DNA of 64,000 nucleotides from the NCBI RefSeq assembly GCF_000828915.1, contig NZ_AP014569.1, forward strand, positions 1,426,001 to 1,490,000. The letters are read 5' to 3'. This DNA comes from Serpentinimonas maccroryi. Lineage in GTDB: Bacteria > Pseudomonadota > Gammaproteobacteria > Burkholderiales > Burkholderiaceae_C. Under the pieces are notes generated by a model. It was given only the letters and a program-made list of their open reading frames with translations. It made no database searches and was not told the origin of the DNA. This document shows, in pieces, positions 51,138 through 53,303 of this stretch (the stretch's first letter is position 1; the number at the start of each line of letters is the position of its first letter). The position numbers and the translations under genes were made by a program.

Positions 51138-53303
51138 GTGAGCACCGCCCCCTTCGACAGCCCCGCCGCCGCAGCGCCCGCTGCCAGCGCGCGCACCCAG
51201 CCGCGGCGGCCGATCCGCGAGTTGCCCGACGCGCTTATCAGCCAGATCGCCGCCGGTGAGGTGATCGAGCGCCCGGCTTCGGTGCTGCGCGAGCTGATCG
51301 ACAACGCGCTCGACGCCGGGGCGCGCCAGCTCACGCTGCGGCTGCAAGCCGGCGGCGTGCGCCTGATCGTGGTCGAGGACGACGGCAGCGGCATCGCGCG
51401 CGACGAGCTCGCGCTGGCGCTCAAGCGCCACGCCACCAGCAAGGTGCGCGATCTGGCTGAGCTCGAAACCGTGGCCACCATGGGTTTCAGGGGCGAGGCG
51501 CTGGCCGCCATCGACTCGATCGCCGAACTCAGCCTGTGCTCGCGCAGCGCCGAGGCCCCCGAGGCCCACGGCTGGCTGCTGCATGGGCGCACGGGCGAAT
51601 TGCAGCCGGCGGCGCGCAGCGTGGGCACCACGGTCGAGGTGCGCGAGCTGTTTTACGCCACCCCGGCGCGGCGCAAGTTCCTCAAGAGCGACGCCACCGA
51701 ACTCGCGCACTGCGTCGAGGCGGTGCGCCGCCACGCGCTGGCCCGGCCCGACGTCGGCTTTGCCATCTGGCACGAGGGCAAGCTGATCGAGCAGTGGCGC
51801 GCCCATAACGCCCACCAAGCCCCTCAATCCGGGGCCCAACAGCCCAGCACCTACCAGCCCGACGCCACTCAGCCCATTGCCATCGAACCCGTCGTCGCCC
51901 CCCTGCCGGGCAACACCGAGGCACTGGCGCCGCGCATGGCGGCCGTGCTGGGCGAGGATTTTTTGGCGCACAGCCTGCCCTTCGACTGGCGCGGCGGCGG
52001 CTTGCGCGTCTGGGGCCGCGCCGGGCTGGCGCAGGTGGCGCGCGCCCGCGCCGACCAGCAGTACAGCTACGTCAACGGCCGTTTCGTGCGCGACAAGGTG
52101 ATCGGCCATGCCGTGCGCAGCGCCTACGAGGACGTGTTGCACGGCCAGCGCCAGCCGGTGTATGTGCTGCTGCTGGAGTTGGACCCGGCGCGGGTCGATG
52201 TGAACGTGCACCCGAGCAAGATCGAGGTGCGCTTTCGCGACGGCCGCGCCGTGCACCAGGCGGTGCGCCAGGCGCTGGAGCAGGTGCTGGCGGCCCCGCG
52301 CGCGCCGCAACTGGCCCCAACCCCTGCGGCGCACGCCAGCGACCCATTGCACCCCGCCGCGCCACCCGCCCTGGCGACGGCGGCGCAAACCGGGCTGGGG
52401 CTGGCCTCGTGGCCCAGCGCCAGCAATTGGCCCAACGCCCAAGCGTGGCCCGAGCGCGTGGCAACAAGCGGCCTAGCTGGGCGGCAGGTGAGCGATGTCG
52501 CGGCGCTGTGGCCGCGCAGGCCCGAAGCCACACCCACATCCGCAACGGCCTACGGGTCGTGGCCGCAGAGCGCAGCCCAAGGCAGCACCGAGGCAACACA
52601 AGCCACGCAAGGAGCAGGAGCAGGAGCAGGAGCAGGAGCAGGAGCAGGAGCAGGAGCAGGAGTAACAACCCCCGATCTAGGCCAACCACAACCCGAGCCA
52701 ACCGCCGACACCGACTGGCCCCTAGGCCACGCGCTGGCGCAGTTGCACGGGGTGTACATCCTCGCGCAAAACCGCCACGGGTTGGTGCTGGTGGACATGC
52801 ACGCCGCGCACGAGCGCATCGTCTATGAAGGCCTGAAGCGCCAGTGGAACGCCGCCGCCGCCACCTTGCCCAGTCAGCCGCTGCTGATCCCGGCCACTTT
52901 TGCCGCCACCGCGCTGGAGCTGGCCACGGCCGAGGCGCAGCAAGAGGCGTTGCAACGGCTCGGGCTGCAGATCGAGCCCCTGTCGCGCCTGACGCTGGCG
53001 GTGCGCGCCGTGCCCGCTGCCTTGGCACTAGGCGACGCCGTGGCGCTGGCGCGCGGCGTGCTGGCCGAGCTCGAGCAGCACGGTGGCACCCAGCTGCTGC
53101 AGCGCGCCCGCGACGAACTGCTCGCCACCCTGGCCTGCCACGGCGCCGTGCGCGCCAACCGGCGCCTGAGCACCCCCGAGATGAACGCCCTGCTGCGCCA
53201 GATGGAAGCGACCGAGCGCAGCGACCAGTGCAACCACGGCCGCCCGACCTGGCGCCAGTTGAGCCTGAAAGAGCTCGACGCCCTTTTTTTGCGCGGACGC
53301 TAA
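51138..53303 (+). CDS. mutL: DNA mismatch repair protein MutL
   Basis: MutL links MutS mismatch recognition to strand processing. I use a GTG at 51138, giving 721 residues. The N-terminal GHKL ATPase domain has IREL-type start, IAAGEVIERPASVLRELIDNALDAGA (read in parts), VEDDGSGI and TMGFRGEAL. The C-terminal dimerisation domain is near QLHGVYILAQNRHGLVLVDMHAAHER (read in parts). The Ala/Gly/Pro/Ser linker between them holds a nine-unit hexanucleotide repeat. A TACAAT (51125-51130) sits 7 bases before the GTG, so the mRNA may be leaderless. No DQHAAxE-like endonuclease motif is evident. Confidence 0.94.
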   Translation: MSTAPFDSPAAAAPAASARTQPRRPIRELPDALISQIAAGEVIERPASVLRELIDNALDAGARQLTLRLQAGGVRLIVVEDDGSGIARDELALALKRHATSKVRDLAELETVATMGFRGEALAAIDSIAELSLCSRSAEAPEAHGWLLHGRTGELQPAARSVGTTVEVRELFYATPARRKFLKSDATELAHCVEAVRRHALARPDVGFAIWHEGKLIEQWRAHNAHQAPQSGAQQPSTYQPDATQPIAIEPVVAPLPGNTEALAPRMAAVLGEDFLAHSLPFDWRGGGLRVWGRAGLAQVARARADQQYSYVNGRFVRDKVIGHAVRSAYEDVLHGQRQPVYVLLLELDPARVDVNVHPSKIEVRFRDGRAVHQAVRQALEQVLAAPRAPQLAPTPAAHASDPLHPAAPPALATAAQTGLGLASWPSASNWPNAQAWPERVATSGLAGRQVSDVAALWPRRPEATPTSATAYGSWPQSAAQGSTEATQATQGAGAGAGAGAGAGAGAGVTTPDLGQPQPEPTADTDWPLGHALAQLHGVYILAQNRHGLVLVDMHAAHERIVYEGLKRQWNAAAATLPSQPLLIPATFAATALELATAEAQQEALQRLGLQIEPLSRLTLAVRAVPAALALGDAVALARGVLAELEQHGGTQLLQRARDELLATLACHGAVRANRRLSTPEMNALLRQMEATERSDQCNHGRPTWRQLSLKELDALFLRGR
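52611..52664 (+). repeat. mutL: Hexanucleotide tandem repeat inside mutL
   Basis: Nine consecutive 6-bp units: eight perfect GGAGCA and a final GGAGTA. They encode (Gly-Ala)8-Gly-Val at about residues 492-509, in the flexible linker. Changes in copy number would keep the frame. Confidence 0.95.

Follow-up and report, generated by a model that had tools for sequence, protein, structure and literature searches.

A pure hexanucleotide tract, probably a product of replication slippage, in the interdomain linker of MutL of Serpentinimonas maccroryi B1

The mutL gene and its GGAGCA tract

The window analysed here, a 64,000-nucleotide stretch of the genome of Serpentinimonas maccroryi B1, the type strain (2,623,236 bases in two contigs), carries on its forward strand the gene of the mismatch-repair protein MutL, at 51138..53303. 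The product matches NCBIfam model NF000949 as a whole protein (822.9 bits, cut-off 750) and contains the Pfam domains HATPase_c_3, DNA_mis_repair and MutL_C; a phmmer search against solved structures found the N- and C-terminal domains of MutL, in 21 distinct sequences. Its C-terminus carries DMHAAHERIVYE, an instance of D[QM]HA-x2-E-x4-E, the metal-site motif of endonuclease MutLs. The MutS_I domain (PF01624) was found in the B1 genome, and MutH (PF02976) gave no match there; the MutH profile did detect its positive control, E. coli, one of the 14 control genomes. The presence of MutS without MutH is the combination that goes with an endonuclease-type MutL, and on these sequence features B1 MutL is of that type.

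The longest open reading frame of mutL opens with an ATG at 51093 and would encode 736 residues. The GTG at 51138 is probably the actual start, giving a protein of 721 residues, because the ATG at 51093 falls inside parE, which ends at 51115, and because the homologue in a congener (G002) reads a valine codon at a comparable place. The parE gene belongs to a parD-parE toxin-antitoxin pair at 50584-51115, directly upstream of mutL, and ends 22 bp before the likely mutL start. Further upstream in the window, an imperfect array of five 27-bp units occupies 44404-44537; its core consists of 9-bp CCTGCCACC units.

The feature of interest is a tandem repeat inside mutL, at 52611-52664. By exact match it consists of eight perfect GGAGCA units (52611..52658, forward strand, TRF score 106), which encode (Gly-Ala)8, followed by a degenerate ninth unit, GGAGTA (52659..52664, forward strand), which encodes Gly-Val. 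The perfect period-6 run spans 52610-52662, that is 53 bp or 8.8 copies. In the mutL frame the tract reads GAGAGAGAGAGAGAGAGV, or (Gly-Ala)8-Gly-Val, as the initial annotation had it. It corresponds to residues 507-524 of the 736-residue frame and 492-509 of the 721-residue form, and lies between the Pfam domains DNA_mis_repair (283-399) and MutL_C (548-692; both in 736-residue numbering).

Chance falls far short of explaining the length of the tract. Against the 53 bp observed, period-6 runs did not exceed 19 bp when the codon order of mutL was shuffled 1000 times, nor 16 bp when the bases of the 64-kb window were shuffled 20 times. Even synonymous shuffles of mutL (1000), which preserve the Gly-Ala peptide and draw on the gene's own codon pool, reached 41 bp at most. 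The codons themselves are rare: in 262 sampled ORFs of the B1 genome, GGA accounts for 266 of 9,919 glycine codons (2.7%) and GCA for 1,069 of 16,739 alanine codons (6.4%), although these shares are somewhat low, since the ORFs were chosen by length and a GC3 above 0.7, a choice that is biased somewhat against A-ending codons. With these frequencies, nine GGA and eight GCA codons would arise by codon choice with a log10 P of -23.7; the rarity of the tract codons does not depend on the exact value. There is not a single synonymous change inside the tract, the codons being pure throughout, which suggests that the run is probably young and originated at the DNA level. Two other candidate features were dropped. 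An RNA structural element was abandoned since all 200 shuffled versions of the region around the tract fold more stably than the real one (z +2.1), and the antisense and alternative-frame ORFs that cross the tract (poly-Leu, Ser-Arg) were judged to be frame artefacts of a GC-rich gene.

The linker and the mutL genes of relatives

An AlphaFold2 model built on 41 of the 83 mutL sequences described below (mean pLDDT 74.0, pTM 0.53) predicts a disordered linker with pLDDT below 50 at residues 394-520 of the 721-residue protein (52317..52697, forward strand). Together with the Pfam boundaries, this low-confidence region places the tract in the interdomain linker, in agreement with the position originally assigned to it. 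One GGAGCA unit contributes two of the 127 residues of the predicted disordered segment, less than 2%, and the whole tract contributes 18.

Linker length was compared in 83 mutL genes, namely the one in the window, those of two congeners and the best 80 of at least 589 relatives, with one genome per species. The span was measured from VHPxKxEVRF to DMHAAHER, and thus takes in some structured residues at both ends. It ranges from 115 to 217 residues, with a median of 163. The B1 span of 186 residues exceeds the upper quartile of the other genes (178) and would be 168 without the tract; the two congeners have 178 and 162. Nine of the 82 other genes have a run of at least six alanines or at least five glycines in this span, so the linker accepts low-complexity inserts elsewhere too. 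The next longest linker repeat among these genes is (GGC)7, in Massilia kyonggiensis. A general tendency of mutL linkers to accumulate repeats is not claimed, since (TGG)4, probably located in the conserved strand that precedes DMHAAHER, accounts for six of the eight other repeats in the span.

The tract itself is confined to B1 in this set. In the 82 other mutL genes (the best 80 of at least 589 and both congeners) every period-6 run is shorter than 18 bp, and the congeners have a different, hardly alignable sequence at the tract position. Copy number is therefore not identical in all homologues; such identity would have spoken against the initial proposal. The values listed for B1 against two other Serpentinimonas species, probably average nucleotide identities, are 85.3 and 85.0 (PMC8513617). 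Five consecutive GGAGCA units occur in four of 300 genomes of the order, B1 included. Of the other three, G087 and G266 have long ORFs in which the stretch encodes Ala-Pro runs, and in G135 no clear gene was identified at the place; by eye, none of the ORFs at five such loci resembles MutL. A search of the titles and abstract openings of open-licence papers brought up no report that the mutL linker of a bacterium carries a repeat tract.

Other tracts and repeat burden in the B1 genome

The mutL tract has counterparts elsewhere in B1. In 864 kb, or 33% of the genome, five perfect runs with a period of 1-12 reach 45 bp: the one in mutL, one in hrpA, one in the tail of MutS and two adjacent ones in a methyltransferase that resembles RsmB. 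The linker of the HrpA helicase contains (GCAAGC)5.3 and (GCGGGT)7.5, both in frame, at L123:11115-11207 (hrpA, 9408-13613); the (GCGGGT)7.5 run measures 45 bp, encodes Ala-Gly, and the tract is absent in both congeners. In MutS, a 9-bp unit, GCCGCCAGC, forms a perfect run of 51 bp on the reverse strand at L172:4013-4063 (mutS, 1184-4270; G000:C1:386184-389270). The Ala-Ala-Ser units that it encodes follow closely on the likely ATG start, in the N-terminal tail; the run is likewise absent in both congeners, whose tails are shorter. The two adjacent Glu-Ala tracts of the RsmB-like protein lie on the reverse strand at L184:8130-8233 (gene, 7272-8798), have GAGGCA and GAAGCA as units and measure 49 and 57 bp, the latter run being longer than the 53 bp of mutL; at this position the congeners carry Glu-Ala or Asp-Ala runs that are shorter. 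The name RsmB-like is provisional, since scores stay below curated cut-offs (226.1 bits against TIGR00563, cut-off 269.05, over profile positions 162-434 of 437).

These tracts resemble that of mutL in their purity, in preserving the frame, in length (45-57 bp) and in lying in a variable linker or tail; they differ from it in their units and in the peptides encoded, Ala-Gly, Glu-Ala and Ala-Ala-Ser. More generally, in the same 864 kb the period is divisible by three in 42 of the 44 perfect runs of at least 20 bp and 2.5 copies with periods of 1-12, and in all 17 runs of at least 30 bp. This frame bias is the pattern expected from general slippage with the frame-breaking products removed. That two mismatch-repair genes, mutL and mutS, should both carry a tract under random placement looks unlikely, but the comparison was made post hoc, with four genes seen, and I regard it as a lead only. 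The MutS tract, like that of MutL, is pure, frame-preserving and probably recent. Low-complexity sequence was also observed in a UvrA-type protein that is truncated by the end of the locus (L184:1-5073) and measures at least 1691 residues, where it takes the form of a dipeptide insert (Gly-Ala/Gly-Ser/Gly-Val) and a repeat of Asp-Gln-Ala-Thr, and in a 190-residue open frame with a Gly-Ala-rich stretch at L147:1501-1737 (G000:C1:759934-760170), for which the congeners show weak matches of the same kind (L148, L149).

Long-standing weak repair in B1 would be expected to lengthen simple repeats throughout its genome. Repeat burden was compared between B1 and the congener A1 in two samples of 400 kb from each, the tests having been chosen after the first sample. 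Hexamer runs of at least 18 bp numbered 20 and 8 in B1 versus 8 and 5 in A1 (pooled 28 versus 13, uncorrected p 0.03; second sample alone, p 0.58). Dinucleotide runs of at least 10 bp numbered 40 and 39 versus 23 and 31 (pooled uncorrected p 0.04), and those of at least 12 bp, 9 and 6 versus 0 and 2 (pooled uncorrected p 0.002; second sample alone, p 0.29). Trinucleotide runs of at least 12 bp gave 46 and 62 versus 55 and 39, a difference whose direction flips between samples and which is the only one with p below 0.05 in the second sample alone (0.03), the hexamer and both dinucleotide tests being non-significant there. Homopolymers of at least 8 were not in excess in B1 (17 and 13, versus 14 and 23 in A1). 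These counts hint weakly that slippage is more frequent in B1 than in A1; they were not accepted as a reliable sign of a genome-wide mutator signature.

Known repeat systems and the origin of the tract

The precedent invoked by the initial annotation, a 6-bp repeat in enterobacterial mutL, does exist: in Salmonella, E. coli and Shigella, three copies of GCTGGC in the ATP lid of MutL are described as a switch, the loss of one copy producing a defective allele (PMC2955026). Both this repeat and that of B1 are frame-preserving hexanucleotide tandems encoding a dipeptide repeat, but the three enterobacterial copies lie in the lid over the ATP pocket, whereas the eight copies of B1 lie in a non-conserved linker. 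The equivalent of the switch site in B1 mutL, in the ATP lid at 51405..51443 on the forward strand (ELALALKRHATSK; sequence GAGCTCGCGCTGGCGCTCAAG...), contains no perfect hexamer repeat. A switch of the enterobacterial type, with its repeat in the lid (LALALA), was accordingly rejected by position. Position in the lid is not a precondition for an effect, however: mutability in Salmonella reportedly fell 4-7 fold when three more mutL repeats and one mutS repeat, all outside the lid site, were locked by synonymous changes. Repeats in mutL or mutS, mostly mono- and trinucleotide, are described for more than 100 species (PMC2955026).

With SSR contingency loci the B1 tract shares a perfect short tandem repeat, well beyond chance and of a length expected to slip. 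Classical on-off contingency loci shift the reading frame or the spacing of a promoter, whereas a hexamer inside mutL changes neither and would not switch the gene in that way. A repeat in tolA of E. coli is a better model than the mutL switch, and the B1 tract is another case of the same kind: both are in-frame intragenic repeats that can gain or lose copies and stay in frame. The tolA repeat varies among strains, has synthetic copy-number variants with measured phenotypes and undergoes RecA-dependent contractions, according to PMC3477136; the mutL tract differs in that it is known from one genome and has a pure hexamer as its unit.

The tolerance of MutL to changes in its linker has been studied elsewhere. 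An E. coli MutL whose linker was cut from 100 to 60 residues reportedly had no mutator phenotype (PMC6902014, citing Guarne et al. 2004), a result that rests on one locus, as the authors of PMC6902014 caution; the short-linker protein is reported to lose roadblock bypass in vitro, bypass being governed by linker length (PMC6902014). In yeast MutL-alpha, linkers that were shortened, scrambled or lengthened are described as causing mild to severe repair defects (PMC6393296), so that linkers are not free of constraint.

The reading I favour, and hold to be quite probable, is that the tract is a nearly neutral, lineage-specific product of slippage in a permissive MutL linker. A short GGAGCA seed would have been expanded by replication slippage, and the tract may have persisted because the linker is disordered and the 6-bp unit preserves the reading frame. 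The expansion would have added a flexible 18-residue Gly-Ala spacer to a linker that was already long and variable in length, and whole units are probably gained and lost over time without much consequence for repair. The slippage was probably recent, as suggested by the absence of the tract from the 82 other mutL genes and by its rare, pure codons. The frame-neutral unit and the slippage origin that had been proposed from the outset are thus supported by the length of the unit, the codons and the shuffles. A measurable effect of a change by one or two units, that is 2-4 residues, seems unlikely. Several observations do count against neutrality: the defects of yeast linker variants, the loss of bypass in E. 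coli, the effect of locking in Salmonella, the presence of tracts in two mismatch-repair genes and the repeat excess of B1.

Some of these observations would fit a rheostat of mutability, as suggested in the initial annotation, in which gain or loss of GGAGCA changes the length of the linker and hence the efficiency of repair, weaker repair in turn raising slippage in the tract. Instability is to be expected of a pure hexamer tract of 53 bp, MutS of B1 has a pure in-frame tract as well, and the excess of hexamer and dinucleotide runs over A1, although weak, has the same direction in both samples. By analogy with the 6-bp switch of Salmonella and E. coli, the locking of other repeats in Salmonella (PMC2955026) and the impairment of yeast MutL-alpha by linker changes (PMC6393296), tuning of repair by the tract is possible. 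Yet the tract is outside the ATP lid, a unit makes up a very small part of the disordered segment, spans of 115-217 residues are found across the 83 genes, and a 40-residue deletion in E. coli is reportedly without mutator phenotype (PMC6902014), all of which argues against tuning through the reach of the domains. The proposed feedback fares no better: the excess of B1 is uncorrected and its hexamer and dinucleotide components are not significant in the second sample alone, homopolymers are not in excess (30 in B1, 37 in A1), and tracts are also present in HrpA and the RsmB-like protein, in addition to the MutS tail. I consider this explanation unlikely. An extension of it, in which joint unit changes in the MutL (53 bp) and MutS (51 bp) tracts, both absent in congeners, alter the mutation rate reversibly and by degrees, with feedback on the stability of the tracts themselves, is very unlikely.

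Selection could alternatively have acted on the protein, a longer flexible Gly-Ala arm being favoured in B1, for example for the passage of the MutL ring over obstacles on DNA. The role of linker length in roadblock bypass by E. coli MutL in vitro (PMC6902014) and a B1 span above the upper quartile are in keeping with this idea, but the tract, with its zero synonymous divergence, bears no sign of age or maintenance, the B1 span remains inside the range of the 83 genes, and the MutL of the congeners does without the tract; selection of this sort is improbable. Finally, the number of units might be wrong in the assembly, the repeat having been collapsed or expanded. Perfect repeats can be miscounted in assembly, but ordinary sequencing reads would span a tract of 53 bp and the frame is intact on both sides, which makes such an error most improbable.

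The tract, in all probability a product of slippage, shows that the MutL linker accepts inserts of this origin, which matches its variable length across the 83 genes, and B1 MutL may serve as a natural arm variant for testing linker function. Should copy number prove to alter repair after all, the tract would match the on-off mutL switch of enterobacteria with one that works by degrees.
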